A stretch of DNA of 33,944 nt from a virus: positions 1-33,944 of IMG/VR virus record IMGVR_UViG_3300017931_000090. One strand, 5' to 3'. Below, in pieces: positions 3,167 through 19,656 of this stretch. The position numbers and the translations under genes were made by a program. Below the pieces are notes generated by a model. That model was not told where the DNA came from, searched no databases, and was given only the letters and a program-made list of their open reading frames with translations. Each line of letters opens with the position of its first letter. Positions within the stretch are counted from its first letter, which is position 1.

Positions 3167-3715
3167 ATGTACAACAAATCAGCCAACAAGCCCAAAGCAG
3201 ACCCGACCGTTTATTCCGACCAGCATGGCTTTTACCGGCGCATCCCGCTTACGCGGGACCAATACGCTATAGTGGATGCGCATCGTTTCGATGAACTATG
3301 CCGCTTCAACTGGTACGCCCAGTTTGCCCAACACACGAAAAGCTTTTACGCTCGCAGGGCTGAGTGGGATCCGGAAACAAAGAAAAACCGCACTGTTGGA
3401 ATGGTTGCTCAGATTTGCGGGGAAAAAGAGATACGCGACCATGCCGATGGCAATACGCTCAACAACCGGGAGTACAACCTGCGTCCGGTTTCGGAATCGC
3501 AAAACGCTTGTAACCGTAAAGTCCGCAGTAATAGTAAGAGCGGATTTAAGGGGGTAACTTGGCACAAACGGCAAAAGAAATACAATGTTCGGATTACGGT
3601 TCTCGGCAAGACCATCGAACTAGGATCCTGCACAGACCCCAAAAAGGGAGCCGCAATCTACAATGCTGCAGCGGTTGTTTATCATGGACCGTTCGCCAAG
3701 TTAAATATTATTTAG
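3167..3715 (+). CDS. HNH endonuclease with C-terminal AP2 domain
   Basis: A homing-type DNA endonuclease of the HNH-AP2 class. From the N terminus, it has a region typical of these proteins (IPLTRDQYAIVD), then the HNH core DHADGNTLNNREYNLRPVS. The AP2-type DNA-binding domain follows (SGFKGVTWHKRQKKYNVRI to GAAIYNAAAVVYHGPFAKLN). The nuclease His-Asn-Asn pattern is present. The upstream Met-His-Arg seen in many relatives is replaced by MVAQ, so activity may be altered. An in-frame GTG at 3152 would add five residues; neither start has a clear ribosome site. The gene is markedly more AT-rich than its neighbours, consistent with a mobile gene. Its end overlaps the leader of the next gene in a different frame. 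Confidence 0.85.
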   Translation: MYNKSANKPKADPTVYSDQHGFYRRIPLTRDQYAIVDAHRFDELCRFNWYAQFAQHTKSFYARRAEWDPETKKNRTVGMVAQICGEKEIRDHADGNTLNNREYNLRPVSESQNACNRKVRSNSKSGFKGVTWHKRQKKYNVRITVLGKTIELGSCTDPKKGAAIYNAAAVVYHGPFAKLNII

Positions 3716-5232
3716 CCTTTATTTTATTTCTTCCTCTTACGTCTCATGCGCAATTCGTGACACTTACCGGGGTTATTCAATCCAGCAACGGACTTCCAGC
3801 CTCGAACTACACGATTTCATTTGTTCCGAATCAATTTGGATTTATAGCTGGGATTGGAGTTGTCGTTAATAACCAAAGTTACTGCGGCACCGATCCTCTC
3901 GGCGCTGTCGTTGGCATCACCAATCCCCAGCAGCCCTCCCTCAACACCCCCTCCTACTCAGGCGGCACGCTCGCCGCGGCCAACTACTTTGTTGAGTTTG
4001 CCTGGTACACGTCCACCGGGACGGTGACGCAGGTCTCGCCCGAGTCGACGGCCCAACTCACAGCCCAGGGCAATCTGCAGGTTGCGCCGCCGTCCATTGG
4101 CTTGCCAGCAGGCGCGGCCGGCATGAACGTCTACATCGGGACGAGCTCCGGCACGGAGACCTACCAGGGCCAGACCACGGGATCCAACGTCTACACCCAG
4201 TCCGTCGCGCTCGTGACGGGCGCCAATCCTCCCGCTTCCAACACCACCATCTGCAAACAGGTTGCGAATGACGCCATCTGGCCCACCGGGACGGGGTACA
4301 CGGTCTCGATGACTGACCCGAGCGGCAACACGCTGCCCGGCTACCCGATGATGTGGCAGTTGCTCGGCCCGAACACAACCATCAATCTTTCCTATGGGTT
4401 GCCGTACTACCACGGCGTTGTGACGTTCCCGGCGCCGATCCTCGCCTCGCCCCAAAACCACGCTCAGCAATCGATCTCGGGACCGCTGTCTCTGGGCAGC
4501 TACTACATGACGGCCGCCGGATTCGGTGTCGGTGTCCTGAGTCCGATCTACGGCGTCGATGTCGAGGGTTCTGGCAACTACGGTAAGATCCACGCCAATG
4601 GCACGATCAATGCCAACGGAGGTTACCTGGTCAACCACAGCGGCGGCACGGCCGGCCAGGGCCTATGCTCGGACGGGACCTCGGTCGATACGTTCTGCAA
4701 CTTCTTGACCAGCGTCACCACGTATTATCAGACAGTTGCGGCGAACGGCACAGCGAAGACTCAGCGGCCAGTACTAAACTTCTCCCCGCGGCTCACGGCG
4801 ACGGACTCAGCATCGCCGGCGGAGACGACGATCGATCTTGCGACCAGCGGAGTGACGGCGGGCAGCTACACCACGCCCAACATCACAGTCGACGCCTACG
4901 GTCGGATCACTACAGCCGCAAGCACGAGCGGTGGCTACACGTCTGGCAACAACGCCAATGGCTACTGGATCAAGGACCCCACCGGCCACATCCACCAATG
5001 GGGCAGCATCACCGGCTCCGCTTCGGTGAGCACGGGGACGGCTGTGACCTTCCCAACAGCCTTCACAACCTCGGCGAGCATCGTGGTCAACGCCACCAGC
5101 ATCACGATCTACAGCAGCGGGATCGGGTTCATCAGCATCGAAGCCACAACGGTGAACACCACAGGATTTACGGTTGAGGTCGGCGCCGAATCTTCGACGG
5201 ATGGCATGTACTGGACGGCCGATGGCTACTAA
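3700..5232 (+). CDS. tail-fibre-like protein with export leader; start codon missing
   Basis: About 510 residues. The C-terminal ~95 residues (GYWIKDPTGHIHQWGSITG onward) match the gp53-like tail-fibre tip pattern. Before it lie beta-rich segments and a module resembling FN3/Ig (residues ~90-170). The N terminus, KYYLAFILFLPLTSHAQF, reads as a Sec signal peptide. However, its first codon is GTT at 3700, where ATG would be expected. No ATG, GTG or TTG lies near it: an in-frame TTG exists at 3559 inside the HNH gene, and the next GTG is at 3757, after the leader. The HNH insertion therefore seems to have removed the native start. Expression may be lost, or use 3559, 3757 or a non-standard codon. 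Coordinates give the signal-like start. Confidence 0.7.
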   Translation, partial: VKYYLAFILFLPLTSHAQFVTLTGVIQSSNGLPASNYTISFVPNQFGFIAGIGVVVNNQSYCGTDPLGAVVGITNPQQPSLNTPSYSGGTLAAANYFVEFAWYTSTGTVTQVSPESTAQLTAQGNLQVAPPSIGLPAGAAGMNVYIGTSSGTETYQGQTTGSNVYTQSVALVTGANPPASNTTICKQVANDAIWPTGTGYTVSMTDPSGNTLPGYPMMWQLLGPNTTINLSYGLPYYHGVVTFPAPILASPQNHAQQSISGPLSLGSYYMTAAGFGVGVLSPIYGVDVEGSGNYGKIHANGTINANGGYLVNHSGGTAGQGLCSDGTSVDTFCNFLTSVTTYYQTVAANGTAKTQRPVLNFSPRLTATDSASPAETTIDLATSGVTAGSYTTPNITVDAYGRITTAASTSGGYTSGNNANGYWIKDPTGHIHQWGSITGSASVSTGTAVTFPTAFTTSASIVVNATSITIYSSGIGFISIEATTVNTTGFTVEVGAESSTDGMYWTADGY

Positions 5233-5305
5233 GTGGGCCAAGCGCGCCCTCATCGCGGCAGCATTCCTCGCCTTCACGGTCTTCTGCGTGTGGGCCAGCC
5301 TTTAA
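5222..5305 (+). CDS. 27-residue membrane peptide
   Basis: A tiny gene starting inside the last codons of the fibre gene (its ATG overlaps the upstream TAA region) and ending 30 bases before the next gene. The product has a basic N terminus (MATKWAKRA) and a single hydrophobic stretch, LIAAAFLAFTVFCVWASL. No ribosome site precedes it, so expression would rely on coupling. It could be a genuine micro-membrane protein or a chance ORF. Confidence 0.4.
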   Translation: MATKWAKRALIAAAFLAFTVFCVWASL

Positions 5306-5334
5306 TCCATTCAATTCAAAGGAGAATCGTCACC

Positions 5335-6279
5335 ATGCGTACATTCGCTCGGAGCTTTATCGTCGTCGCGCTCATCGCACTGGTCGCCATTTGCGCGGCC
5401 CCCGTAGCGGTGGCGCAGGGCAACCAAACCTTCATGCAGCGCTGGTACTTCGCCTCCGACTTCGGTCAGTGGGCGGTTCGCGGCCAGCAGGCCAACACCT
5501 ACCAGTGGTCCCCGGGCACCGTCTGCCTCGTGAGCCCCACGGGCAGCGCCGGAGCGGCCTTCTTCCCGTTCGCCACCAATGCCCCGGTCGAGATCGTTGA
5601 CGTCACCGGCCCGACAACCAACAACGAGGTTGTCACCCCGTCCGCGGTCACAAACAGCAACGCCTACTGCACGATCGCGGTCTCGCCTGGCAGCAATCAC
5701 TACTCGTTCGACGTGGTTTCAGGCACAGGCGGTCTACAGGAGGTGCTGAACAACATCAGCCGGACGGCGACTGCGCCAGCGATCGTGTGGCTCGACCGCA
5801 ACTGGTACGCGCTGGCCAACTCCGTGCCGAGCACCACGCCGGCGGCGATCATCGCGGCGGCCAAGGGCGGTGTCTCGGCCATCCTGGTCGACGACACCAC
5901 GGCCGGATTCACCTACTACGTGTGGAATGGGTCGGCCTACGCCTCCGGCACCTGGCTCAACACCAAGCCCACCACGGCCTACGGCGCTGCGGTCGGAAGC
6001 CCGACCGGCACGTCCGACACCGGCACGGCGCTGACGGGGATCGTGAAGGTCACCACCGGCACCGGGACCACAGGCATCGTGTTCACGGAAACCTGGTCGA
6101 CCAGCAACCAGTTCGCATACGCCCCGACCTGCACGGTGGTCTTGCTCGGTGCCACAGCTCCGCCAACGCTGACAGTGACGCCCACCTACGCCGGCGGGAC
6201 ACACGCCGTGCTGACGGTCACGGTCGCGTCGGCCATGGCCTCGACGACCCCGTACAGCTTCCAGTGGTCCTGCTACTGA
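5335..6279 (+). CDS. exported appendage-type protein, paralogue of the next tailspike N terminus
   Basis: 314 residues from an ATG with AAAGGAG ten bases upstream. An open frame continues further upstream, but this start has the ribosome site and the signal peptide. The leader (MRTFARSFIVVALIALVAIC to AVAQG, ~29 residues) is a clear Sec signal. The mature part contains FASDFGQW, VTPSAVTNSNAYC, SGTGGLQEVLNNIS and YVWNGSAYASG. The same ordered motifs occur in the first ~200 residues of the 1112-residue protein encoded at 7357, so the two share a duplicated module. The C-terminal ~100 residues are Thr-rich beta-strand repeats. Likely a cell-surface or virion appendage protein; the exact role is unknown. 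Confidence 0.8.
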   Translation: MRTFARSFIVVALIALVAICAAPVAVAQGNQTFMQRWYFASDFGQWAVRGQQANTYQWSPGTVCLVSPTGSAGAAFFPFATNAPVEIVDVTGPTTNNEVVTPSAVTNSNAYCTIAVSPGSNHYSFDVVSGTGGLQEVLNNISRTATAPAIVWLDRNWYALANSVPSTTPAAIIAAAKGGVSAILVDDTTAGFTYYVWNGSAYASGTWLNTKPTTAYGAAVGSPTGTSDTGTALTGIVKVTTGTGTTGIVFTETWSTSNQFAYAPTCTVVLLGATAPPTLTVTPTYAGGTHAVLTVTVASAMASTTPYSFQWSCY

Positions 6280-6283
6280 GTTC

Positions 6284-6362
6284 CCCGCGCAGATTCATTC
6301 GCGGGCCGCGGCTCCAATTCGGAGCCGATCAATGGGCTGGGTTCTCTCAGGAGGCCCAGCCC
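6284..6362 (+). other. three consecutive hairpins between appendage genes
   Basis: Three perfect stem-loops follow one another in the 114-base gap. They are CCCGCG/CGCGGG (6284-6289, 6300-6305), CGGCTCC/GGAGCCG (6309-6315, 6321-6327, 5-base loop) and GGGCTGGG/CCCAGCCC (6334-6341, 6355-6362). None is followed by a T-run, so they are not classical terminators. mRNA stabilisation or processing between the two genes is plausible. Confidence 0.6.
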
Positions 6363-6393
6363 TCACATCTAAGGGACGAGAGGAGCCCCTGAC

Positions 6394-7317
6394 ATGACCA
6401 AGATCCGCTTCGCAGTCATTGCGGCAATATGCCTGCTGGGGGCGAGCCTCGCCAGCGCACAGTACGTCAACCCATCGGCCCCAAACTACGGCGTCAACAA
6501 GATGGGCCAGTGCTACAACTCCACCCTGAATAACTGGGTCGACGTTCTGCCCACGACGGCCAACTACACCGTCTATCCCGTCCAGTGCGATCAGTATGGG
6601 AACCTCACCGGAGTGAGTGCACCGGCGAAGATCTCCACCTCCGCCATCACGGTCAACTCCCTGGCGAGCGGGACGGACACGACAGCCGGAACAGCATCGA
6701 CCACCGGCGGCACCATGACGGCCTCGGCGTACAACTACGCTCGGATCGTCGCCATCGATGCGGCCGGAAATCACACTGCCCCAAACACCATCTCCGCGGC
6801 AAAGACGACCACAGGTACGACCGCCAGCATCGCGTGGTCATGGACGGCAGTCACGGGCGCGCTCTCCTACCAAGTGTGGGTCTGCACGGGATCATCGTGC
6901 ACGCCGGCACACTATTTTACGAGCCCCACAAACGTCTATCTGCAGACATTGCCCGCAACGAGCGGCACAAGCGGCACCCTCCCGACCGTCAACAACACGG
7001 GTCAGATAACCGGGATGCTCGGTTCTCCCTACTGGGCAGACCACGTGGATGGATACAGCATTCTTTCGACGGATGCGAACATCCGCGTGACCGGCGCATC
7101 TAACGCCGTGGTTACTCTGCCCGTGGCGGGATTGATGCAGGGCCAGATCATCAGGGTGAGCAATAAGTTGACGAACTCCGCGAACGTCACGGTGAATGCT
7201 GTCGGCGGTCCCGCGATCGGCAACTCAGGCAATGACACCTCGGAAGTGGTTTGGACCTACGGCAGCACCGACACGTTCCAGTGGGACGGCACGATGTGGT
7301 GGGTGATTGCCCACTAA
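6394..7317 (+). CDS. exported FN3-like appendage protein
   Basis: 307 residues with AGGAG eight to nine bases before the ATG. The first 22 residues (MTKIRFAVIAAICLLGASLA then SAQ) form a Sec signal peptide with a textbook A-Q cut site. A short segment with YTVYPVQCDQYGNLTG follows, similar in kind to the N terminus of the 1470-residue protein at 15244. Next comes an FN3-like fold (ARIVAIDAAGNHTAPNTIS, then ALSYQVWVCTGSSC). The C-terminal domain (residues ~205-307) has GYSILSTDANIRVTGASNAV and VTLPVAGLMQGQIIRVSN, resembling beta-rich phage structural domains, and ends FQWDGTMWWVIAH. Probably part of a surface or virion appendage set with its neighbours. Confidence 0.8.
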   Translation: MTKIRFAVIAAICLLGASLASAQYVNPSAPNYGVNKMGQCYNSTLNNWVDVLPTTANYTVYPVQCDQYGNLTGVSAPAKISTSAITVNSLASGTDTTAGTASTTGGTMTASAYNYARIVAIDAAGNHTAPNTISAAKTTTGTTASIAWSWTAVTGALSYQVWVCTGSSCTPAHYFTSPTNVYLQTLPATSGTSGTLPTVNNTGQITGMLGSPYWADHVDGYSILSTDANIRVTGASNAVVTLPVAGLMQGQIIRVSNKLTNSANVTVNAVGGPAIGNSGNDTSEVVWTYGSTDTFQWDGTMWWVIAH

Positions 7318-7356
7318 GCGGGAGGATAAGCTGAAGAAACAAGAGGAACAGCACCA

Positions 7357-10300
7357 GTGAAAACATCCAATGTGCTGAGAGCGATCTTCTGGGCAGCCGT
7401 GTATGCGTTCCTGATATGGGGAGCGTGCGCCTACGGCCAAGGTTCGAACGGCGGCATCCTCTATGCCTCCGACTTTGCCGCGTGGTCCCTGCCGCAAGGG
7501 ACGGGGCCGGCCAACGGGATGATCGCTTGGCCCAGCGCGCAGGTGTGCCAGATCTCCACGGTGGGCGGCTACAGCTTCACGGCGCCGAAGGTGGGTCGCA
7601 AGCTCACCATCGTGGATAACGGAGTTCCGGCGCACACGGAGACCGTGACGCCGACGCAGGTGACCGTGGGACCAGGTGGCTGTTCGCTGACGGCCACAAT
7701 GAGCTACTCGCACTTGAGCTATACCGTCAAGAGCGGCACGGCCGGGCTGCAGGAGGCGATCGACTACCAGACGGGCTTGCCGCAGGGCGCGCTGGTGGTT
7801 TTGACTCCGGCGTGGACGTTGGCCGGCGGGACCACGGGCATGATCACCGGAGCCTACGGAACATCGCTGGTGTCGATCTCCGATCAGCGAGATGCTGTGC
7901 TGATTGCCTACACTTGGAACGGAAGCGCCTACGTGGCGACTTCGTTTGGAGGAAGCGCCTGCGATCCCAATACCATCCCCAACGGCTGCACTGGAGGCAC
8001 TTCATTGCTTGCGGCGCAAGGAAGTTTGGGGATCTCTCCGGTCCAAAACATCGTCAAGTATGGCGCGGTCATCGATGGCATGTCGGGAACAGACATCGGT
8101 CCTGCAGTACAGAGCGCGATCGCGGCCTGCCCGGGCGACAGCGGCACAGGCGGCGTGTCCTGCACTGTGCTGCTGCCCTGCACCGGCGTGGGTTGCTATT
8201 GGAAGACGCAGACCGCCATTACTTCTGCGTATTCGAAATCGATCCTGATTCTCATCGAAGGAAAGGTGCAGTTAGGCGATACACTTCTTGAAAACTCTTT
8301 CATCGTGCTGCAAGGGAATTCGGGCGGAACGCCTCAAGGATTCCAGAACCGCGGCCCAGCGGCGGAGATTCATGGCGCGCCGTGGAAGGGCACGATGGGG
8401 ACGGCGATCACATCGATCGGGAGCCACAGCTTCACGCCGACATTCACCACCGGTGTGATCGGAAACTTGAGTACAAATTCATGGCTCACCATCGTAGATC
8501 CTGTGACCGTCACAACGATCGGCACTGTGACACGGACGGCATGGACGGGAAACAGCCCCAACGTGTCGGCAACGCTGACCTCCTACACTCGGATGGCGCC
8601 GGGTTCGCTCATCACTGTCAGCGGGTGCACGGATTCCAGCTTCAACGTGACAAACACCTTCGTGATTGCGGTGAACTACCAGAAGCACCTGATCTCGTGG
8701 GCAGAGGACCAAGCGGCGGGAACCACGACCGGCTGCACGATCACCGGGTGGAACCAGGACAGCTTTGAGTCCACGCGGCTGACGAACGTGGGGAGTTCCA
8801 CCCTGACCGCAACGTTCCGCAAAACGCATCTCGCAACCGCGCATTGGGGGATTGCCGGTGTCGCGTTGCCGGCCGGAGTCGGTCCTTATGAGCTCGACTA
8901 TCTGGAGATCCAGTCCGCGACCGGCGCTCAGTTTGTAACGGGTGATACGGTCGACGCAACGTTGATCGGGGATGGATTCGCGGCGTCCGCCAATGTGACC
9001 TCCATCGGTGCCGACGTAAACCTCGGGCTCTCGACTGTCAGAGATGTCTCGGTTGCCTCGTCGCTGGCCTCGTTCTGGACGTGTTACACCACCGGATACC
9101 AGAACTGCGCTGAGCCGAGTTTCCCTTCGGGAGCGTGGCGTTGCACCTACTACGGAGACGTTCCGAATGAGGGCGGCTGCGGACATACGAGCTTCAAGGA
9201 CACGACATTTTACGGTGGCTTCGAGGCAGATAGCAATCAGAGGACGGCCTCGGTGTCAATGCCCGACTTCGAGCATGTCGAGTTTCGCATGTCACCGCAG
9301 TACGCGGTTGACATCGACAATCGATACGGCTCCTCTAACCCCTTTCAACTCGACTACGCAGTTCCAGAAGACAACGCAATCGGCACACCGGTTCTTTGCA
9401 CTGTGGGAACCACTGATGGAGATGCGGGGTATTTCGTTGGACCAGTGCACGTCGGCCGATGGGAATCGTCGGCGACCTACTGCCTCGCGCCTCCGGACTT
9501 CAACGGTCGGCTGATTGCGTGGCCCACGGATAACTTAGAGTTGCCAGTGAGGCCGGGTTTCCCGGCGGGAACCTTTGATTCGGGTGGAAAGCAACTGACG
9601 GAATTCTACGGACAGGATGCTGGACTCGGGCCGAGCGTGATTCCGTTCGCAACCCAAGCGGTCAATTCCGCGGCGAACGTCTCAGGACAATGCGTCTCTT
9701 CAGGTAAATGCACAGTCAGCACGGTCGTCGGGCCGGACGGGTCTGCCGACGCAATTGAGATCAAGGCAATCTCGGATGCCGCCTATCCCCCGCCGTATGG
9801 CTGGACCGGATCAATCGCCACTTATGCCGGAGACTGGATTCTCTACGGAGCGAAAGTGCGGCACGGCGCCGGGCTGAATGCGCCGAGTTCTCTCGCTGGT
9901 AACGCCTCTCTGGACATAGCGAGCTTCGGCACGGACAGCTTTATCGGCAACTCTCCGCAGTTCTGGCAGATGGGGATCACGCTCAACGGGGATTGGGAAT
10001 CAATCGTGGGAGCCGCCACAGTCGTGACGGGTGAGGCGACGCCGCACACCGTGGGCTTGCGGATGTGGCCAGGCCCCTTGAGCACAGAAGGCAACCAGTT
10101 CTACAACTGGTTTGTCATCGTCGTGCCAGGGCCAAACAACCCCGCATGGGACTTGGTGACGACCGGGGAGACCATCGAGCGGGTGCGGCGCGATCTGTTG
10201 CACGGCGCGGTTCCATCGAGCTTCAATCATCCGGGCATTGCAGTAACACTTGAAAGAGTCGCTGCCCCAGAATTTGACATTCTAACTCCAGCTACGGGCG

Positions 10301-10695
10301 CGATTACACCGATCGCAGGCACCCCGCAGTCGGTTATCATTGTGGCCGACGCAGGAGTCGATCCCTCACATGGTGGAACGGCCGTATGCTGGGATTCGGG
10401 ACATGGTGGAACGGCAGTGTGCAATTCGACCAGCGGGATTGTACTGGTGACATTTGGCACAACGCCGGTGGACGACGATCTTTTCGAGGTAGGCTGGGTA
10501 AGCGCGAAAGCGAGCATGCCAGTCCTTACGCCAGCCCAAGTTCATGCGACAGCACCGCCGCAGTGCTGGATTCAGGAAGATGCCGATAACAGCACAACGC
10601 TCAAAGGTGTTATTATCCAGAATTCAGCTACTTGTGGATTTATTTCGAACATGACCGAGTATGTCAGTTACCACATTGATCCGGTACTTCCGTGA
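7357..10695 (+). CDS. large exported tailspike-like protein
   Basis: 1112 residues from a GTG preceded by AGAGGA. The N terminus is a signal peptide or membrane anchor (VLRAIFWAAVYAFLIWGACA, cut near Y-G-Q). Residues ~30-205 are the module shared with the protein at 5335 (ASDFAAW, SGTAGLQEAIDY, YTWNGSAYVAT). Near residue 233, IVKYGAVIDG followed by TDIGPAVQSAIAAC is the usual entry to a pectate-lyase-like right-handed beta-helix, as in tailspikes. The following ~400 residues are strand-rich. The C-terminal ~350 residues include a carbohydrate-binding-like stretch. No catalytic residues can be assigned. The likely role is binding or cleaving a surface polysaccharide. Confidence 0.8.
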   Translation: MKTSNVLRAIFWAAVYAFLIWGACAYGQGSNGGILYASDFAAWSLPQGTGPANGMIAWPSAQVCQISTVGGYSFTAPKVGRKLTIVDNGVPAHTETVTPTQVTVGPGGCSLTATMSYSHLSYTVKSGTAGLQEAIDYQTGLPQGALVVLTPAWTLAGGTTGMITGAYGTSLVSISDQRDAVLIAYTWNGSAYVATSFGGSACDPNTIPNGCTGGTSLLAAQGSLGISPVQNIVKYGAVIDGMSGTDIGPAVQSAIAACPGDSGTGGVSCTVLLPCTGVGCYWKTQTAITSAYSKSILILIEGKVQLGDTLLENSFIVLQGNSGGTPQGFQNRGPAAEIHGAPWKGTMGTAITSIGSHSFTPTFTTGVIGNLSTNSWLTIVDPVTVTTIGTVTRTAWTGNSPNVSATLTSYTRMAPGSLITVSGCTDSSFNVTNTFVIAVNYQKHLISWAEDQAAGTTTGCTITGWNQDSFESTRLTNVGSSTLTATFRKTHLATAHWGIAGVALPAGVGPYELDYLEIQSATGAQFVTGDTVDATLIGDGFAASANVTSIGADVNLGLSTVRDVSVASSLASFWTCYTTGYQNCAEPSFPSGAWRCTYYGDVPNEGGCGHTSFKDTTFYGGFEADSNQRTASVSMPDFEHVEFRMSPQYAVDIDNRYGSSNPFQLDYAVPEDNAIGTPVLCTVGTTDGDAGYFVGPVHVGRWESSATYCLAPPDFNGRLIAWPTDNLELPVRPGFPAGTFDSGGKQLTEFYGQDAGLGPSVIPFATQAVNSAANVSGQCVSSGKCTVSTVVGPDGSADAIEIKAISDAAYPPPYGWTGSIATYAGDWILYGAKVRHGAGLNAPSSLAGNASLDIASFGTDSFIGNSPQFWQMGITLNGDWESIVGAATVVTGEATPHTVGLRMWPGPLSTEGNQFYNWFVIVVPGPNNPAWDLVTTGETIERVRRDLLHGAVPSSFNHPGIAVTLERVAAPEFDILTPATGAITPIAGTPQSVIIVADAGVDPSHGGTAVCWDSGHGGTAVCNSTSGIVLVTFGTTPVDDDLFEVGWVSAKASMPVLTPAQVHATAPPQCWIQEDADNSTTLKGVIIQNSATCGFISNMTEYVSYHIDPVLP

Positions 10696-10703
10696 GGAGA
10701 ACC

Positions 10704-11222
10704 ATGAAACGCATCTTTGCAGCATTCGCACTCGCAGTTCTAGCGGCAGGTTGTCACGGGCAGGTCCCGCCCGCTTCGTCGGCCAAGGTAGTTCTGACCT
10801 GGACCGCGCCAGTCGCAAGCGGCAACTGGACCGGCTGCACCACGGCCGCGCCATGCACCTACGCGATCTACCGCGCGACAGGCGCAACGTGCCCTGCCTC
10901 GACCAGCACAGCTTTTCAGGAGGTCACCACGCCCACGGCGCGTCCCTCGGGCACAACCTGGACTGATACCACGGCGACCGGGATGACGGTCTGCTACATC
11001 GCAGCAACGATCCAGGGGACGCAGAACAGCGGGCCGTCGAACACGGCTGGGCCAATCGCAGTTCCGGGCGTTCCGCTGGCTCCGGCGTTGGGGACTCCAT
11101 CGACCGCGGTGCTCGAGAAGTCTCCGGGCTGCTTCGATTGCTTCACGCCGGAGCAGGTGAACTGCTGGGAAGGATCGTGCACTGCGCCGTTGAGTCTGAT
11201 GGCGACGCTGAAGAGGCGGTGA
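10704..11222 (+). CDS. predicted lipoprotein with FN3-like domain
   Basis: 172 residues, starting at the ATG with GAGGAGA upstream; an in-frame GTG at 10692 is an unlikely alternative. The leader KRIFAAFALAVLAAGC ends in LAAGC, a good lipobox, so the mature protein would be lipidated at Cys 17 and anchored in a membrane. The remainder resembles one FN3/Ig domain (KVVLTWTAPVASGNW, CTYAIYRATGATC, VCYIAATIQG). A cysteine-rich tail follows (CFDCFTPEQVNCWEGSC). A phage lipoprotein at the end of an appendage cluster could act in surface display or superinfection exclusion; this is inference. Confidence 0.75.
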   Translation: MKRIFAAFALAVLAAGCHGQVPPASSAKVVLTWTAPVASGNWTGCTTAAPCTYAIYRATGATCPASTSTAFQEVTTPTARPSGTTWTDTTATGMTVCYIAATIQGTQNSGPSNTAGPIAVPGVPLAPALGTPSTAVLEKSPGCFDCFTPEQVNCWEGSCTAPLSLMATLKRR

Positions 11223-11377
11223 TGGACACGCCGCTGCGCATCTGCGCGGATCTGGACCGGCTGCGTCAGTCGGTTGGGAGCAGGCCGTTGGAAGGCATCC
11301 GTGCGACGCGCGTGTTGAAGGAACTGGCGCACGTAGACGAGCGGCTCAAGGTGATTTTGGCAGGACAGGTAGGGTAG
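11222..11377 (+). CDS. small helical hypothetical protein
   Basis: 51 residues from an ATG that overlaps the previous stop as TGATG; a GTG one codon earlier is also possible. The product (ICADLDRLRQSV, ATRVLKELAHVDERLKVILA) is almost entirely helical and charged, with no signal or membrane segment. Not recognised. It is coupled to the lipoprotein gene and sits 14 bases before the coiled-coil membrane protein gene. Confidence 0.55.
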   Translation: MDTPLRICADLDRLRQSVGSRPLEGIRATRVLKELAHVDERLKVILAGQVG

Positions 11378-11391
11378 GATAGGGGAAGGCG

Positions 11392-11817
11392 ATGAGCGAT
11401 GATGGGCGTCTTGGCGAGCTCGATGGGCGTCTGCGGAAACTGGAGACAGATATGGCCTCACTGACAGCGGATCACAAGAGCGTGATGTCCGACCTCTACG
11501 GCAACGGGCAAAAGGGACTTCTCGATACGCTCAACGAGTTCGTTGCGGCGTACAACACGCGGGAGACAGAGCGAGAGAAGGCGTTCATCACGCAGCAGAA
11601 TTCGGTTAGGGACGTGCTGGATATTCACAACAAGAAAGTCATGCGATGGGTTGCAATCATAGGACTGCTGGTGGCTGTCCTAACACTCGTAGAGGGGACT
11701 AAACTCCTGCCAAAAGGAGTGCTGAAGACACCGGCAATCATCGCTTGTCAGACCGCTACTCATCTGACCAGCGGATGCGCAAACCCGGCGTATGGCAGTA
11801 GCATGTACAGCAGGTAG
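11392..11817 (+). CDS. coiled-coil plus membrane anchor protein, holin-associated type
   Basis: 141 residues. The N-terminal ~80 residues are a coiled coil (GELDGRLRKLETDMASL and TRETEREKAFITQQNSVRDV). One membrane helix follows at residues ~84-101 (VMRWVAIIGLLVAVLTLV), then a short tail. This layout resembles XhlA-like or holin-accessory proteins in phage lysis modules. The 3' 58 bases overlap a convergent minus-strand gene. It stands just before a holin-like gene, supporting a role at the cytoplasmic membrane during lysis, though another membrane role cannot be excluded. Confidence 0.65.
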   Translation: MSDDGRLGELDGRLRKLETDMASLTADHKSVMSDLYGNGQKGLLDTLNEFVAAYNTRETEREKAFITQQNSVRDVLDIHNKKVMRWVAIIGLLVAVLTLVEGTKLLPKGVLKTPAIIACQTATHLTSGCANPAYGSSMYSR

Positions 11818-11951
11818 ATCAGGAAGATCACGGCGACAATCACCTGAGCCACGCGGCCAAAGGGCGCCGGCAGGGGAATGAGGCTGATGATCCAGTACAC
11901 CACGCCGAAGATCAGGCAGACGATGAGAAGCGTTACCAAGATCGAAAGCAT
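11760..11951 (-). CDS. 63-residue two-helix membrane protein on the opposite strand
   Basis: Read leftward from an ATG at 11951 with AGAGGTG upstream. Two hydrophobic segments flank a Pro-rich turn: ILVTLLIVCLIFGVVYWII, then IPLPAPFGRVAQ, then VIVAVIFLIYLLYMLL. This closely resembles the small Thivi_2564-type membrane proteins found in many bacteria and phages, whose function is unknown. It is the only minus-strand gene inside a long rightward block and converges with, and overlaps, the end of the coiled-coil membrane gene. A longer in-frame upstream extension lacks a ribosome site, so the internal start is preferred. Confidence 0.65.
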   Translation of the reverse strand: MLSILVTLLIVCLIFGVVYWIISLIPLPAPFGRVAQVIVAVIFLIYLLYMLLPYAGFAHPLVR

Positions 11952-12106
11952 CGAAGCACCTCTACCTGAGAAGAGCACTAGGGGCAGCGAGCCGTCTGTG
12001 CAATCCGGTACATCCAGGCCAGCTCCGCGCCCGATCACCGACCGCGAAATGGCTGAGTGGAAACGGGAGCAGGGTCGGGCGTAGAATTCTGAAAGGAGAA
12101 CCGACA

Positions 12107-12349
12107 ATGTGGAGCACAATCGTTAGCGCATGGGCGCATTTTACGCAGAACTGGAAATCGACCGCGGCGAACTTCCTTACGCTGGTGGTCATCACCGGCG
12201 GCTACTTCGCGGTGATTCCCGTCGCCACGCTTCAGGAGCACGGCATCACCCAGAATGAAGTGTTCTGGGGAACGGTGATCTGCGGGCTGGCCAAGCTGTA
12301 CGTAGGCCTCATCACGAATGACGCCAAGTCCACCCAGGCGGCGAAGTGA
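12107..12349 (+). CDS. holin-like membrane protein
   Basis: 80 residues with AAAGGAGA at ideal spacing. Two membrane segments are visible, about residues 20-43 (NFLTLVVITGGYFAVIPVA) and 51-69 (VFWGTVICGLAKLYVGLI). A charged, Lys-rich tail follows. Size and topology fit a small class II holin that would make lesions in the inner membrane so that endolysin can reach the wall. A lysozyme gene lies 2.2 kb downstream. The next gene starts with a GTG overlapping this stop. No family signature is certain; it could be another membrane protein of the lysis region. Confidence 0.6.
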   Translation: MWSTIVSAWAHFTQNWKSTAANFLTLVVITGGYFAVIPVATLQEHGITQNEVFWGTVICGLAKLYVGLITNDAKSTQAAK

Positions 12350-12615
12350 ACCTCGCCCTCACTCCCGCGCAGTTCGCGGCCCTGCTCGTCGCGCTGATCG
12401 CTGATGCCGCCGTGCACCTGGTCCAGACCGGCCCGCTGACCGGCAACTTGTCCTATCGGGGCGCTACGATCGGCTACGCCTATGACGGCGCTCTCCAGGT
12501 GACCGTGGCGATCCTCGATAAGCACTTCCCGGCGATCCTGCTCACGGACGACCAGATTTTCGCCAAGATCACCGAGAAGTTCAACCAGTACATCGCAGGA
12601 GGCAACACCGCATGA
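12346..12615 (+). CDS. small hypothetical protein
   Basis: 89 residues from a GTG that overlaps the upstream stop codon, so translation is probably coupled. The N-terminal half is moderately hydrophobic (FAALLVALIADAAVHLV). The second half is soluble (GYAYDGALQVTVAILDKHF, DQIFAKITEKFNQYI). No recognised domain. The stop overlaps the protease start as ATGA. Its place between a holin-like protein and a papain-like protease suggests a role in the same lysis or surface module. Confidence 0.6.
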   Translation: MNLALTPAQFAALLVALIADAAVHLVQTGPLTGNLSYRGATIGYAYDGALQVTVAILDKHFPAILLTDDQIFAKITEKFNQYIAGGNTA

Positions 12616-13319
12616 GACTCAGAGGCGCAAGACCATCTCCCAGGCATCGCCTCGCGGCTGCACGGCCACACGTTCCATTGGCTCCGACGCCGCCACAGTT
12701 CCTGTGGAAGCCTGTGCAGATATCGATGTGGGCCAACGATGTCGATGGCGACTGTGTGACAGCCGAAGAGGCGTTCGCCAAAGCCTGCCACTCGCCGGAG
12801 ATTTTCGTCACCGACGATGAGGTAGTCGCCTGGGCGACGGCGAACGGCGTTCTAAATGGGGCCGATCTGACGCAGGTTCTCGACCTGATGCAAAAGGGTG
12901 GATTCCTCCAGGGAAGTTCGCGCCTGGATGACGGGCCTTACGTTTCCGTGGATTGGACCAACGCGGCGATTCTCAAGAACGCCATCGCACAAGGGCCGGT
13001 CAAGATCGGAGTAGCCGCGGATCAGCTTGAAAACGCGGTTCCCGATCCGCCTACAGACGGCTGGCTCGCCTCGGGATTCAAGCGGGACCAGAACGAGGAT
13101 CATTGCGTCTCGCTCTGCGGGTACGGAGAGATCGGCTGGCTAGCTAAGCAACTCGGAGTGACAGAAGACGGCTATCTCCTCGAAGCTGATTCTTCAGGAT
13201 ACGCAATGTTCACCTGGAACTCCATCGGGATCATCGACGTGCCCTCGCTGCTGGCAATTTGCGGGGAGGCATGGCTCAGGAATCCCACAACCGTTGTAGC
13301 CGCGATGGCGGCACTTTAA
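12612..13319 (+). CDS. papain-like cysteine protease fold protein
   Basis: 235 residues. The key blocks are WANDVDGDCVTAEEAF with Cys48, EDHCVSLCGYG with His164, and YAMFTWNSIG with Asn203. Their order and spacing match the Cys-His-Asn triad of papain-fold (C1-like) peptidases. In true papains the nucleophile is normally followed by Trp; here it is Val, and an oxyanion Gln is not obvious, so activity is not certain. There is no signal peptide, only a basic, Pro-rich N terminus of ~30 residues. Translation is coupled to the previous gene (ATGA). Possible roles are virion or host protein processing, or peptide cleavage during lysis. Confidence 0.7.
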   Translation: MRLRGARPSPRHRLAAARPHVPLAPTPPQFLWKPVQISMWANDVDGDCVTAEEAFAKACHSPEIFVTDDEVVAWATANGVLNGADLTQVLDLMQKGGFLQGSSRLDDGPYVSVDWTNAAILKNAIAQGPVKIGVAADQLENAVPDPPTDGWLASGFKRDQNEDHCVSLCGYGEIGWLAKQLGVTEDGYLLEADSSGYAMFTWNSIGIIDVPSLLAICGEAWLRNPTTVVAAMAAL

Positions 13320-13380
13320 CAAACGAGACAGCCCATGGGGGCAGCGAGGTTTGCCGTGGATCCAGAAAGTGAGCTAGTCA

Positions 13381-13677
13381 ATGAACCGGCGTGAAGCTCT
13401 TGGAACGTTTGTAATCGCGGCGGCAAGTCCAGTTTTGGGCGCACAGACTGGATCCGAAACGGCTGCTTCCTCTTACGCTCGGTTAGTCAACGCCACCGGA
13501 GAGGACGCTGCTGAACGAAAGCGCCAATACGCGATCTGCAAAGAACGTGGGCACGCACACGGAATAGGAATGTTTGCAGCCTATCCCGAAGAAACAAATC
13601 CGTTTGTTCCCTGCAAATTCTGTGGCACGGGATTCCGTTTCGTAACTACAATGGAGGAACAAGGTGCTCCTGAGTAG
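13381..13677 (+). CDS. possible Tat-exported small zinc protein
   Basis: 98 residues. The N terminus MNRREALGTFVIAAASPVLG followed by A-Q has a twin-arginine pair followed by a mild hydrophobic stretch, as in Tat leaders; the second half of the Tat consensus (FLK) is weak. The mature part contains CKERGHAHG and PCKFCGTGFRF, which could give a Cys/His metal site. Tat export would make sense if the protein folds around metal in the cytoplasm. A GGAGGAAC site for the next gene lies within its 3' end and the two genes overlap by 14 bases. No family recognised. Confidence 0.65.
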   Translation: MNRREALGTFVIAAASPVLGAQTGSETAASSYARLVNATGEDAAERKRQYAICKERGHAHGIGMFAAYPEETNPFVPCKFCGTGFRFVTTMEEQGAPE

Positions 13678-13786
13678 AATTGTCTGGGCATATGCCGAAC
13701 TGGGCCTTGGCGCTTTCTGGCTCTTGGTTCTTCTGAGCTTTTCTGCGTCAGACCTCATCAAGAAATGGAGAAGGAGACAACCATGA
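13664..13786 (+). CDS. 40-residue membrane protein
   Basis: A short gene from a GTG with GGAGGA five bases upstream, overlapping both neighbours (ATGA at the 3' end). The product has a hydrophobic core (LGLGAFWLLVLLSFSA) and a strongly basic tail (KKWRRRQP), giving a single-pass membrane peptide with the tail in the cytoplasm. The precise overlaps and ribosome site make it a likely real gene. Function unknown; small membrane peptides in lysis regions can be holin regulators. Confidence 0.62.
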   Translation: MLLSRIVWAYAELGLGAFWLLVLLSFSASDLIKKWRRRQP

Positions 13787-14355
13787 AGCACATTCTCATC
13801 ACCGCGGGCCTGTTGTTGTTGTTCCTCGCTGCGGCAATGGCCGCCAGCGCGCAGGTCACAGTTGGAACGACCGCAAGCGCCTACTACTACCAGAAAGCCT
13901 GGTTTGTGGGCAACGAGACGACCGCCAGCGTGCCCTTTCTGTACCTGGGCACCGCGAAGAACAACATCCTGTCGCTGGGCGGGCGCAACGATGTGGCTGC
14001 GAACGCGTTCGACGCCTACACCGGACTCGTGAGCTTCCAGCCCGACCTGACCAAGTATTTCGGCAATCAGGTGGCGCTCTCGCTCGACGTGGGAGGCGGC
14101 GCGGCCACGCTTGCGGCCGGAGGGACCAAGCCTGCCGTCCAGGGCACGCTGAACTTTACCGTCATGCTCACGCCGAACACGTCTGCTATCGGCGGGTACG
14201 CCGGGGGCGGCTTGATTGGCGGCAACAAGTTTGGGAAGTTCTCGGCCGGCATTGCGCATTACTTCGGCGGTCCTGCCACGGTGCAGAGCCAGGCCAAGAA
14301 GAACTTCGTGAAGCGATACCTTTCGACCCACTTCAAGAAGCAGACGGGCCAGTAG
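13783..14355 (+). CDS. exported protein, possibly an outer-membrane beta-barrel
   Basis: 190 residues starting at the ATG after GAAGGAGACAACC; an upstream in-frame ATG is less likely. The leader HILITAGLLLLFLAAAMA ending S-A-Q is a strong Sec signal. The mature chain alternates polar and aromatic residues, as in strands of a small barrel (TASAYYYQKAWFV, VALSLDVGGG, TLNFTVMLTP, GKFSAGIAHYFG), with glycine-rich turns. The last ~25 residues are basic and would lie outside a barrel. If it inserts in the outer membrane it may alter the host surface, for example to block other phages. The barrel assignment is by eye. Confidence 0.65.
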   Translation: MKHILITAGLLLLFLAAAMAASAQVTVGTTASAYYYQKAWFVGNETTASVPFLYLGTAKNNILSLGGRNDVAANAFDAYTGLVSFQPDLTKYFGNQVALSLDVGGGAATLAAGGTKPAVQGTLNFTVMLTPNTSAIGGYAGGGLIGGNKFGKFSAGIAHYFGGPATVQSQAKKNFVKRYLSTHFKKQTGQ

Positions 14356-14357: not shown

Positions 14358-14528
14358 ATGGACCGCTTCGTCTTGATCGCCCAGGCCGTCTCGCCGGGTG
14401 GGAGCGCGGAGTTCGACGTGAAGCTCTACGTCTGCGAAAAGTGCGGTGCCATCGTAGCCGAAGATCGGCGGCAGGCGCACCGGGAGTGGCATGAGCACGT
14501 CGCGGCCCGCGCAACATCGGAGGGATGA
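14358..14528 (+). CDS. small C2H2-type zinc finger protein
   Basis: 56 residues from an ATG two bases after the previous stop. It contains CEKCGAIVAEDRRQAHREWH, a Cys-x2-Cys followed by two or three histidines, the common phage one-finger pattern (CxxCGA...HxxWH). It likely binds zinc. Target unknown. Its stop overlaps the lysozyme start (ATGATG), and the GGAGGG ribosome site for lysozyme lies in its last codons. Confidence 0.7.
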   Translation: MDRFVLIAQAVSPGGSAEFDVKLYVCEKCGAIVAEDRRQAHREWHEHVAARATSEG

Positions 14529-14953
14529 TGCACACCAGCGAGAACGGCATCGCGTTCATCGAGTCGAATGAAGGGTTCGCCGCCCAGGTCTACAACGACA
14601 ACGGGAACCCCGCGATTGGATTTGGGCACGATCTCCTGCCGTGGGAATCGTTCCCCAACGGCCTGACGCGGCCCCAGGCGGAGGCCTTGCTTATCTCCGA
14701 TCTGCGCACACGCTTCGAGTCTCCGGTGAACGCACTTATCCCGCCGACCTGCACGCAGAACCAGTTCGATGCCTGCGTAGACTTTTGCTTCAACGAGGGG
14801 CCGCGCGCCTTTGCGATTATGATGCACCATGGATGGGATCAGGTTCCCGAGCAGATGCTGGCGTGGGTCTGGGAGCACGTGAAAGGCGTATTGGTGAAGT
14901 CGCCGGGGCTCCAGGCACGCCGCGAGGCCGAAGTTCAGATGTTCAATTCATAG
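14525..14953 (+). CDS. GH24 phage lysozyme (endolysin)
   Basis: 142 residues, GGAGGG before the start. It cleaves the glycan backbone of peptidoglycan. The signature IESNEGF...YNDNGNPAIGFGHD matches the N-terminal lobe of T4-type GH24 lysozymes, with catalytic Glu16 and Asp25 nine residues apart, as in T4. The third T4 catalytic residue, Thr26 in TIGIGH, aligns with Ala30 in PAIGFGH, so the mechanism or rate may differ. The Q-FDACVDFCFNEG block fits the family's second conserved region. There is no signal peptide or anchor, so release would depend on a holin. A terminator-like hairpin follows directly. Confidence 0.88.
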   Translation: MMHTSENGIAFIESNEGFAAQVYNDNGNPAIGFGHDLLPWESFPNGLTRPQAEALLISDLRTRFESPVNALIPPTCTQNQFDACVDFCFNEGPRAFAIMMHHGWDQVPEQMLAWVWEHVKGVLVKSPGLQARREAEVQMFNS

Positions 14954-14976: not shown

Positions 14977-15036
14977 CGCGGACAGTCAGAGCAGCAGAGG
15001 GGACGGCTCCAAAGGCCGTCCCTTTTGCTGTCCGCG
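14977..15036 (+). terminator. nested hairpin terminator after lysozyme
   Basis: An inner stem GGGACGGC/GCCGTCCC (15000-15007, 15015-15022) with a 7-base loop is followed by TTTT. An outer stem CGCGGACAG/CTGTCCGCG (14977-14985, 15028-15036) encloses it. The inner part is a good intrinsic terminator closing the lysis block; the outer arms make the element unusually long. Confidence 0.75.
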
Positions 15037-15044
15037 AAACTCCT

Positions 15045-15227: not shown

Positions 15228-15243
15228 AGAGGGAGCTCTTCCC

Positions 15244-18200
15244 ATGAGAAAAGTTCTGATTCTGGCGCTCGCGTTCCTCGCGGGTGCATCGCTCGCGTGC
15301 GCCCAAGCGCTTCCGGTGGGACCAAAGGCGTATCTCGGCTACTGCCTGGCGACTTCTGGCGCCAATGCCGGCCTCTACATTCCGATCGCCGTCTCTGCGA
15401 ACAGCTCCGTCGTTCCGAATCCCCCCACCGCCATCACTCTCTACGGATTCGATTCGACGAACTACGATCCAGTGACCTGCGACTCGAGCGGAAACTTGAA
15501 CTTTGGATCTTTCCCGAAGTTTGCCGCGGCACCATCTCACTGCTCGGCCGGGCAGGTCTACTTCAACACGGTCAGCACAACGCCCTATTATTGTTCTGCG
15601 ACGGACACATGGACGGCGTTCGGCAGCGGCAGCTCGATGACCTGGCCTACTACTCCTGGCTACGCGCTCTGGTCGAGCGGTACTTCGTGGGCGACGCCGC
15701 ACCTGTTCGATGCTACCGGATTGGTCTATACCACCGAGCCGTTTTATACGTCTTACATCGGCACGGCCTCTCAGTCCTCGCTTTACGCAACAGGGGCACC
15801 TTACACGGGCGGCACGGCCACAACCAATTTCCCGCTTGCCTATCTCAACGGCGGGGGCGCTGTTTCGTCGTTCTCCACCTCGGGTACGGAGTTTGGCATC
15901 AACGCTCCGAGCGGCTTCACCGGGAACTTCCTCGACTTCCACGTAAATGGCGGAGCCTCGGTCGGAAAGGTTGACTACACCGGGAAATTCACCTTTGCTA
16001 CCGCTCCGGTTTTCACTGGGTTGACGGGGTATCTCTACGCAAACGGAGCCTCACAGGCCAGCGCAGCAACGACGATTCCACTCGGCAGCATCGTGAGCAC
16101 GGCGGGAACGCTTGCACCCCTGGTTCTGGCAAACGCCACGAGCGGCCTATTGTCGCTTCAACCAGCTGACGGAGCAATCACATCCTACACAATCGAGCTT
16201 CCGGTTGCGCAGCCGACCTCCAGCAATACTCTTCTTTCCTGCACGGCAGCCAATCCGGCGGTCTGTACATGGACCGGAAACGCGCCCACGGCCTCCAGCG
16301 CAACCAAGAGCACAAACATTGCAGGCGGCGCTGCGGGATCAATTCCGGTGCAGAGCGCAGCGGACACTACGACGTTTGCCACAGGGAACTCTACCGGATC
16401 AACGGACGCCGTTCTGACCAGTACCTCATCGGGCGGGGCTTACAGTGCGACAGCGTTCAAGAACGCGCCGGCGGTGAGTCTCGCCAACGTCACCGCAGCC
16501 GCGATCCCGGTGAACGTGAGCACGCCGGGCTTGACGCTAAGCGCCGTAACCGACGCAGCGGCCCCCACAGGCGCAGCAACAAACTCAGGCCAGTCCGTGC
16601 CCGCGAGCACAACGAATCAAGCCGTGCTGACCTGCATCGATTCGAGTGGCGTAAACACCACAAATGCACTGAATGCCTCAGCCAACGTGACGACCACGGG
16701 CGGTTCCAGCTTCATCGTGTGGACCTATGGCACTGTGCCTACAGGATGCACGACGCCGTATCTCTGGCTGAAGAACACAGGCTCGTTTGCGTATTATCAC
16801 GCGGTATCTCCGTCACAGACGACCTGGGAGCAGGACGCGGCGTACACGACCTACACCCCTGCGGCAAGCTATCCCGTTGCAGGAGTGCTGCCCGCCGCGA
16901 ACACCACGGGCTTGCCGATCCTGCAAGCGATCAAGAGCGCTAACGCTCTCGCCACAGGCTCAGACGGCCATGTAACAGCGCAGTCCGCAGCGCAAGCCGC
17001 AGCGCAGATTGCGGGGCAGGATATTGAGCCAAATCTTGTCAGTTCCGCCATGTCTCCTATAAACGTAACAAATCCTGGTTACGGCGCGAAGGGCGATGAG
17101 CGGATGGTGTCGGATGCCTCAATCAACGCCGGATCGTACACTCTCCATTCTGCAACTGCAGCCTTCACTTCTTCGGATAATGCCCGCACCTTTACGGTGG
17201 AAATGGGTTCGCGGATCATGGCGAACGGAACTTATCAGTCAGGCGGAACGATTAGTGGACCAACTGGAGGGTTTTGTTCACTGAGCGCTTTCAACGGTGC
17301 ATCTGGGGTCACAGGAAATGTATGGCTGACAAGCACCGATACTATCGCTGCCGGAAGCGATCTGATCTTCACTAACGTGGGGTCCGGTATTGCGACTGCT
17401 CCAACCTCCGCCACACTTGGCAACGGTATCGCGGCTACTGGAACAGTTAATACCGTAGGTGCTGAAGTGTCTTGGATTAGTGGCGGGATGTTCTCTCCAA
17501 ATTGGGTAGGTTACAGCATGACGATTGGCGCAACCACCTACACAATTCAGGGCGTGGAAGGCGGAAATCATCTTACACTAGCGACATCTGCGGGAAGTCA
17601 GACGGGAGCTTCTTTCACAATCACCGGGGCGACGTGCAGCGGAACTGCCACGATTTCGACGAACCTTTTTGCAAAACCCGTGACAACGACTGGGACCATC
17701 GTCAACTCCACAACGGTAACGCTCGGCACGGCGGCGACGAATAACGTGAGCGGCGCAAATGCGTGGATCGGTACAGATGATACAGCGGCTTTCCTAGCGG
17801 CAATCAGCGTTGCTGCGCTCAAAGGTGGCACCGTGTACGCCCCAGAAGCTCAAGGGTGTCCAACTGGATATACGGGCGTGTGCCAGTATCTGATTCTTGG
17901 ACAATTAACCTTTCCGGTTTCTACCTATAGCCCCTGCACTTTTGATGGTGGAGCCTGTTTGAATCAGCAGGCTCCTGTCTATATTGCTGGCGATGGTCCT
18001 AGTTTCTTGTATCCAGGCGCTAACCAAGTCCCACCCGCAACGCCTTTTGGTGGCACGATCTTGGATATGCGGAGCACGACCAGTCCGGCAAAGATTGTAG
18101 ACTTAGCCCAAGGATATTTAGACATCTCTGCCATCACGTTAACAGACAACGGATGGGACACGAACCCCTACGTATTGACCACAAACACGGTGCTCCACGC

Positions 18201-19656
18201 CCACGATATGTATGTAGATGACAATGCAATTTTGAATGGGTGGCACGCGGGGACGTGGCTAAAAGATGCCTTTGTCATCGGCGGGCAGGACGCCGTACCA
18301 AGTAATTTGACTACTGCACCGTTCTTTGGCTACGGCTCTAGTATCGAGCGCGTGGGGTTTGGCCGCATCCAGCGTGGTGTACTGACGGGGGCGTGGGCAT
18401 CGTCTATCGCCATATCCGACAATGTGTTCTACGCGACAGGAGGATCGGACAGTACCGCTGCGGCTATTGAATTAAATGCCGGCACAAATGCGCCGCTGGG
18501 CGGAACGTTACACAACCACATCAACGATAATCTAATTGAAATGTTAGGAAGGGCGTATGGCATCAAATTCACTGTATCTTCAGATAGTACCATTGCAGGA
18601 AATTACTACGGGGATGCCTCGAATTATAGGACCATAGCCTTTGATCGCTTTGAGGTAAATTCAACAGGGAACATTGTCTCGGATGAAGACAGCCATACTT
18701 ATAGTTATGGCTATCCAGGAGCTCAGTGCGCCTGGGTGTCATCAGCAACGAACGACAACTTTGTGCAGTTTACGAGTGTGCCGCCGCTTTCTCCGAGCGG
18801 ATTGCGCACATTCTGTAATCCCTGGTTTGGCGGTATCGCTGCAGCCATTCCCCTAGTCTTAGGGCCATTTGCTATCGAGAGCGCGCCTGGAGCTAACTGG
18901 CCCGCTTACGAAATATTTGATACGAATGCAAATGCGAATACGCGCAACTGGGCTTTGGTATCAACCTACGAAGCCTACGGAACATTGTGCGTCAATCACA
19001 GCAATCTAATTGGCGGTGATCCTCTTGCGGCGGGCACACCCAGTATATGCTTCGGCCCAACCGGAGGCGTCAATATCGGAGACGTAAGTGATCCCGGTGC
19101 GGGTAACCTAACCGTGGGGGGAGCGATCAAGTGGGGTTCCATGACGGCCTCTCCGGTGACTGCTACGTCGCTTTCAGCGACATTCCCCTTCACGCTAAAT
19201 GGGTCGGCGAGTGGACTCAATACTTATATCCAGCTTCTGAATAACAGTTCGCCCATTGCCATCTTAGGCAGCGGCAGTTCCCTTTATGGTGGCGATCCGG
19301 CGGCAAATGTTGGGTTATGGGTGTACGGGACGAATCAGTTCGACCTTTCTACAAACGGGGTCAAGCGATTCTCCGTGGCGGGCTATGGGGGCGTAGGAAT
19401 TGGTATAACCCCATCTTCCCCGTTATTGTTTGAGGTTAACGGCACTTCGGAGTTTGTTGGCGAAGCGAGCTTTGAAGGAACCTCATCTAGTATCAGCGCC
19501 GCTGGTACGATTCAAGCGGATGGTGGGGCCACTGTAATGGATCATTGCGTAGGTGGAACTATGGATGGTGCATATATCGCGGCATCCAGTACCCAGGCGA
19601 CCGCCTGCACAGTGGGCGGCGGTACGCTAATTGTCTCGGGATTTCTTGGAAATTGA
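15244..19656 (+). CDS. giant exported tailspike-like protein
   Basis: 1470 residues from the ATG with GAGGGAG upstream (an earlier in-frame TTG is unlikely). The leader MRKVLILALAFLAGASLACA with A-Q is a clear Sec signal. The N-terminal ~350 residues carry tail-fibre-like repeats (FTGNFLDFHVNGGAS, YTGKFTFATAPVFTG) and an FN3-like part. Around residue 612 VTNPGYGAKGDERM, and around residue 842 GTDDTAAFLAAI with GGTVYAPE, mark entry into a right-handed beta-helix like those of polysaccharide-binding tailspikes; this continues to ~1190. The DNA for residues ~600-1230 is visibly more AT-rich with different codon use, suggesting an acquired module. The C-terminal part resembles fibre-tip repeats. 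No catalytic residues assigned. Confidence 0.8.
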   Translation: MRKVLILALAFLAGASLACAQALPVGPKAYLGYCLATSGANAGLYIPIAVSANSSVVPNPPTAITLYGFDSTNYDPVTCDSSGNLNFGSFPKFAAAPSHCSAGQVYFNTVSTTPYYCSATDTWTAFGSGSSMTWPTTPGYALWSSGTSWATPHLFDATGLVYTTEPFYTSYIGTASQSSLYATGAPYTGGTATTNFPLAYLNGGGAVSSFSTSGTEFGINAPSGFTGNFLDFHVNGGASVGKVDYTGKFTFATAPVFTGLTGYLYANGASQASAATTIPLGSIVSTAGTLAPLVLANATSGLLSLQPADGAITSYTIELPVAQPTSSNTLLSCTAANPAVCTWTGNAPTASSATKSTNIAGGAAGSIPVQSAADTTTFATGNSTGSTDAVLTSTSSGGAYSATAFKNAPAVSLANVTAAAIPVNVSTPGLTLSAVTDAAAPTGAATNSGQSVPASTTNQAVLTCIDSSGVNTTNALNASANVTTTGGSSFIVWTYGTVPTGCTTPYLWLKNTGSFAYYHAVSPSQTTWEQDAAYTTYTPAASYPVAGVLPAANTTGLPILQAIKSANALATGSDGHVTAQSAAQAAAQIAGQDIEPNLVSSAMSPINVTNPGYGAKGDERMVSDASINAGSYTLHSATAAFTSSDNARTFTVEMGSRIMANGTYQSGGTISGPTGGFCSLSAFNGASGVTGNVWLTSTDTIAAGSDLIFTNVGSGIATAPTSATLGNGIAATGTVNTVGAEVSWISGGMFSPNWVGYSMTIGATTYTIQGVEGGNHLTLATSAGSQTGASFTITGATCSGTATISTNLFAKPVTTTGTIVNSTTVTLGTAATNNVSGANAWIGTDDTAAFLAAISVAALKGGTVYAPEAQGCPTGYTGVCQYLILGQLTFPVSTYSPCTFDGGACLNQQAPVYIAGDGPSFLYPGANQVPPATPFGGTILDMRSTTSPAKIVDLAQGYLDISAITLTDNGWDTNPYVLTTNTVLHAHDMYVDDNAILNGWHAGTWLKDAFVIGGQDAVPSNLTTAPFFGYGSSIERVGFGRIQRGVLTGAWASSIAISDNVFYATGGSDSTAAAIELNAGTNAPLGGTLHNHINDNLIEMLGRAYGIKFTVSSDSTIAGNYYGDASNYRTIAFDRFEVNSTGNIVSDEDSHTYSYGYPGAQCAWVSSATNDNFVQFTSVPPLSPSGLRTFCNPWFGGIAAAIPLVLGPFAIESAPGANWPAYEIFDTNANANTRNWALVSTYEAYGTLCVNHSNLIGGDPLAAGTPSICFGPTGGVNIGDVSDPGAGNLTVGGAIKWGSMTASPVTATSLSATFPFTLNGSASGLNTYIQLLNNSSPIAILGSGSSLYGGDPAANVGLWVYGTNQFDLSTNGVKRFSVAGYGGVGIGITPSSPLLFEVNGTSEFVGEASFEGTSSSISAAGTIQADGGATVMDHCVGGTMDGAYIAASSTQATACTVGGGTLIVSGFLGN

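Follow-up and report, generated by a model that had tools for sequence, protein, structure and literature searches.

The window analysed here, an IMG/VR virus record of 33,944 bases, contains a block of genes for large spike-like proteins that carry Sec leaders. Export of the leadered proteins from the cytoplasm is highly probable, and we mildly favour the reading that they are disulfide-bonded tail spikes, which would be added to virions in the periplasm or on lysis. Leaders and their conservation, cysteine enrichment and parity, protein architecture and genome context were computed.

Leadered genes in the window

Leaders were called with our own heuristic caller, not SignalP. Its false-call rate is ~0.6%, measured on internal starts or shuffled N-termini, and it called no leader in 44 leaderless virion proteins; the leaders in the window are therefore not attributable to chance. 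Genes B, C, D and G encode n-, h- and c-regions followed by a cleavage motif in which a small residue precedes Q, and gene E encodes a lipobox. The features of the region are as follows.

3152-3715: HNH-type ORF, directly abutting gene A (PF13392, E 2e-4, below the curated cut-off)
3703..5232, + strand: gene A; leader-like stretch at 3703-3750 that lacks a standard start codon, mature frame beginning with Q at 3751; 4 Cys
4972-5229: Gp53-like/H-lectin-like C-terminal domain of gene A
5335..6279, + strand: gene B; ATG preceded by Shine-Dalgarno AAAGGAG, Sec leader 5335-5415, conserved N-domain, beta-sandwich C-domain; 4 Cys, two of them invariant
6394..7317, + strand: gene C; ATG, Sec leader 6394-6459, 285 aa mature; 4 Cys
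7357..10695, + strand: gene D; GTG start, Sec leader 7357-7437, conserved N-domain ~7438-7970; 22 Cys
10704..11222, + strand: gene E, lipoprotein; ATG, lipobox LAAGC, 8 further Cys
13783..14355, + strand: gene F, small leadered protein, outer-membrane-barrel-like by eye; no Cys
14525..14953, + strand: phage lysozyme (endolysin), within the block
15244..19656, + strand: gene G; ATG, Sec leader 15244-15303, 1450 aa mature; 20 Cys
15781-16002: fibre module of gene G with FLDFHVNGG
19665..19934, + strand: small leadered protein
19931..20344, + strand: leadered DPBB (RlpA-like) protein (E 7e-21)
21232..23781, + strand: leaderless portal-size protein of 849 aa, a conserved neighbour of the cassette; putative function from position and size
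26120..27406, + strand: leaderless protein of major-capsid size, which marks the phage group; putative function

The sequence-only reading had placed leaders on at least five proteins and a lipoprotein. They are clear at 5335, 6394, 7357, 15244 and 10704, whereas at 3700 the stretch is leader-like and has no usable start codon. Further leadered genes lie within the block at 13783, 19665 and 19931, and the downstream genes of portal, scaffold, capsid and tube size have no leaders. A small protein at 13381-13677 has a Tat-like N-terminus (RREALG) and no Pfam match. The RlpA-like protein adjoins the cassette and is possibly a lysis or peptidoglycan factor; it, lipoprotein E and the barrel-like F are probably helpers or lysis factors, which is a guess. 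At the left end of the record (1-118) is a 24-base tandem repeat of 4.9 copies, whose minus strand codes for GTSTSGDG-like repeats.

The gene start proposed at 3700 was rejected, as the codon there is GTT and the only ATG, GTG or TTG starts of this frame are TTG 3559 and GTG 3757. The in-frame leader-like stretch reads YYLAFILFLPLTSHA up to the predicted cut, followed by QF. Homologues of gene A occur in seven other contigs, and nearly all copies have a proper leader; one of them, L037_8012, was left unscored by the caller, but its N-terminus is MKLPACAFVLLSSICAA followed by Q. The family has an invariant Cys pair (C45 and C168). Since the leader-like stretch is present and the relatives have proper leaders, gene A is probably real by ancestry and damaged or oddly started in the window. 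The HNH-type ORF ends at 3715, so that A has probably either had its start displaced by an insertion or uses an unusual one; an endonuclease insertion at 3152-3715 possibly damaged the gene. A second record of the same virus (L002/G001), shifted by 5,773 bases, adds ~6 kb, and the region of gene A lies outside its coverage.

Appendage-type domains had been ascribed to all of these proteins. By sequence they were found in A, with a Gp53-like tail fibre C-terminal domain (E 1.7e-9) and a match to the virion structural protein phrog_2557 (E 1.8e-10), and in G; B and D qualify by architecture, and C and E belong to no firm family. Sequence searches recognised no fibre or spike domain in B, C or D, and across the cassette proteins few members have a recognised spike domain. 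Searches against solved structures by sequence returned nothing useful. The model of B (pLDDT 82) gave no significant match among solved structures: the best fold match of its N-domain was the Klebsiella K1 capsule lyase at Z 7.5, within the range that the tool calls uninformative, and its C-domain has a common beta-sandwich fold. The AlphaFold model of A was discarded (mean pLDDT 41).

Related and cultured phages

We used the N-terminal ~200 residues of B, of D and of one relative to search viral contigs, and found 12, one of which is the same virus as the window. Where the capsid proteins gave clear matches, they are 37-74% identical to that of the window, and the portals are 43-78% identical. 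By sequence, the window and the contigs with the N-domain are one phage group. The same cassette recurs in these related soil phages, with A, B and D genes beside the portal, and the related capsid and portal genes are found in the same contigs.

The N-terminal domain of ~180 aa common to the B and D families occurs in 2-3 copies per record in each of ten records searched and contains two invariant Cys, C37 and C85. All 23 copies with an intact start have a leader (caller score at least 4 in 21, at least 3 in all), and many have an AAGGAG Shine-Dalgarno sequence directly before the leader ATG. Relatives starting downstream of the leaders, which the sequence-only reading had named as evidence against its proposal, did not appear among these 23 copies. 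The identity of the leaders compared with that of the mature domains (0.41 vs 0.45) is uninformative. Residues ~1-200 of the B and D families align and the bodies have no similarity; D relatives range from 247 to 1,876 aa, and the large body of D itself has no detected relatives. This family thus has the conserved N-domain and variable C-terminal body of tailspikes and tail fibres, with the N-domain as the putative docking part.

Gene G contains a module with 56-70% identity to several genes of other phages and 37% identity to L016. G has one module in common with large leadered genes in L010, L011 and L012, and a second in common with L014, L015 and L017. In L011 and L015, head genes lie upstream of the leadered block. 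The first module also occurs in two leaderless genes, L013_9833 (0 Cys) and L016_9974 (1 Cys), in contigs that have a minor tail protein (L013) or a terminase and portal (L016). When a profile search was iterated to look for a C-terminal domain in common, it recovered only itself, and plain BLAST linked L010, L011 and L012 only.

Leadered blocks are also present in cultured phages. Among five phages of Tunturiibacter, a genus of Acidobacteriota (PMC11924767), the podophages Tunturi 1 and 2 encode four large proteins with leaders each. In Tunturi 1 (PP887698), the stretch bounded by gp11 (tail gene) and gp21 (endolysin) contains leadered gp12, gp13, gp14 (annotated as tail spike), gp16 and gp17, and for gp12, gp13, gp14 and gp17 the annotation begins the gene at the leader. 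The block recurs in Tunturi 2 (PP885685), with gp14 annotated as pectin lyase and an internal insertion in gp17. This insertion is of ~96 aa (L039 19474-23028 in Tunturi 1 vs L043 18902-22744 in Tunturi 2), and the two phages are almost identical in the remaining block proteins that were compared. The fibres of Tunturi 3/4, from the same host genus, are leaderless and Cys-poor. The paper describing the isolates does not mention signal peptides, the word 'signal' occurring only within its reference list.

Like the window, Tunturi 1/2 carry in gp12-gp17 a block of large leadered Cys-rich proteins after a tail gene and before the endolysin, one of them annotated as tail spike or pectin lyase. No tblastn match linked the portal, the N-terminal part of D or G of the window to any of the 50,697 phage records searched. 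No homologue of gp12 or gp14 was found in any other phage record searched, nor any relative of gp12 in the scanned viral contigs.

The host of the window phage may belong to the Acidobacteriota, an indirect and unproven link drawn from the Tunturi parallel, an endolysin match of 33% identity and the GC content of 60%. A scan of genome contigs for the fibre module returned only one short contig, assigned to Dehalococcoidia, so that no host could be derived from prophages. A separate observation concerns L046 (record G015), in which 2266-14007 encodes a protein of 3,913 aa; it contains 0.08% Cys, matches SNF2/helicase and, weakly, RelA/SpoT, and resembles a giant polyvalent protein, perhaps one that is injected along with the DNA.

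Cysteine content and export

Cys makes up 2.02% of the leadered proteins and 0.58% of the leaderless virion proteins that the same genomes encode. The Cys count is even in 41 of 46 mature leadered proteins of at least 300 aa (p 2e-8; 19 of 21 after clustering by similarity), and in 44 of 79 leaderless proteins; in several of the odd cases the cleavage site is uncertain. The counts of the window proteins are those listed above. This enrichment and parity, a statistical signal, suggest disulfide pairing outside the cytoplasm. An extensive disulfide network has been reported in the tail of phage Milano, and that paper's text contains no mention of a signal peptide (PMC10811340); disulfides alone are therefore not proof of export.

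By the heuristic caller, the leadered proteins have n-, h- and c-regions with a cleavage motif, conserved in homologues, and the genes start at the leader. Export is well supported, because leaders are present in all intact relatives, a Shine-Dalgarno sequence precedes the leader ATG in many, and Cys are enriched and evenly counted. The sequence-only reading had suggested export and offered masking of surface receptors, an extracellular fibre coat or attachment to virions after lysis as destinations; among these, attachment to virions appears to fit best, as the genes lie in a virion and lysis block, the architecture is tailspike-like and no leaderless fibre gene was found in large related contigs.

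Destination of the exported proteins and known systems

We propose that A, B, C, D and G are tail fibre- or tailspike-type proteins which the infected cell would export by Sec. The leader would be cut between a small residue and Q, and the proteins would fold with disulfide bonds in the periplasm. They may then join virions once the particles have left the cytoplasm, either in the periplasm during lysis or just outside, with the N-domain shared by B and D as the common docking part and the divergent bodies binding or cutting surface polysaccharide. That the exported spikes attach to virions is, on balance, the outcome we would expect.

It is less probable, and still a serious possibility, that the proteins are exported and never reach virions, acting as secreted polysaccharide-degrading enzymes or as adhesins on the host matrix or surface, in release, dispersal or the exclusion of other phages. 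A leadered apiosidase-like glycoside hydrolase (Pfam E 1e-49) inside the fibre cassette of L012 (12141-13625) is consistent with this, as are the chitobiase C-terminal-like and InlB-like repeat domains of relatives and the lipoprotein, barrel-like protein and RlpA-like protein of the block; a domain search found no catalytic domain in the cassette members of the window. These phages would then be devoid of any recognisable fibre or spike gene, however: the virion modules of four related contigs of 58-69 kb, which are large and not proven complete, contain no leaderless one. Nor is there a consistent C-terminal membrane anchor, a 19-residue hydrophobic stretch past residue 90 being present in 11 of 54 proteins at no constant C-terminal place, and a conserved N-domain with divergent bodies in 2-3 paralogues per phage is the architecture of receptor-binding proteins.

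Modular mosaicism, and the general tendency of phage accessory genes to encode exported proteins, would also accord with leaders and Cys-rich bodies captured from secreted host proteins, as mosaic lysogenic-conversion genes expressed from a prophage. We consider this unlikely, since in the window and its relatives the cassette is co-oriented with the virion and lysis genes and lies beside them, and since it is conserved across the phage group and present in plaque-forming isolates. That the leaders are uncut hydrophobic N-termini, on proteins that never leave the cytoplasm or inner membrane and are incorporated into virions in the ordinary way, is very improbable: canonical fibres do assemble in the cytoplasm and cleavage is here predicted, but the motif of a small residue before Q recurs, Cys are enriched and evenly counted, and two paralogues of L017 with different leaders align from the predicted mature start QGVRYD.

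Returning to exported spikes that attach to virions, we give even chances to the broader proposal that a lineage of tailed phages, with culturable Acidobacteriota phages among its members, assembles its virions in two compartments, with heads and tails made in the cytoplasm and disulfide-bonded spikes exported by Sec and added outside. We found no report of Sec-leadered tail fibres in the literature searched, which was covered in part. If widespread, Sec-exported and probably disulfide-stabilised fibres would change the picture of tailed-phage assembly and explain how the receptor-binding genes of many soil phages could escape notice or be classed as secreted enzymes of the carbon cycle. The reading is testable now in the Tunturi 1/2 isolates.

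Canonical phage tail fibres and tailspikes are assembled in the cytoplasm, have no leader and sit on the virion, usually as trimers. The cassette proteins depart from cytoplasmic assembly in their leaders and Cys parity, and for this reason we file them as a variant that would work like a spike and not as canonical members of the tailspikes or tail fibres. Like P22 gp9, T7 gp17 and the Klebsiella K1 lyase, they are long, repetitive and beta-rich, combine a common N-domain with variable bodies, occur several per phage and are placed with virion genes; unlike these, they have Sec leaders and many evenly counted Cys. The phage exclusion lipoprotein Llp of T5 is, like the small lipoprotein E, an exported phage protein, and the other cassette proteins differ from it in being large, not lipidated and many. 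The receptor-binding virion protein pIII of filamentous phage leaves the cytoplasm by Sec and acquires its disulfide bonds before joining the virion; it is held by a C-terminal membrane anchor, for which the cassette proteins have no constant counterpart, and is extruded with the particle. In Sec export and disulfide bonding pIII resembles the reading given here, in which the cassette proteins too would come to reside on the virion.
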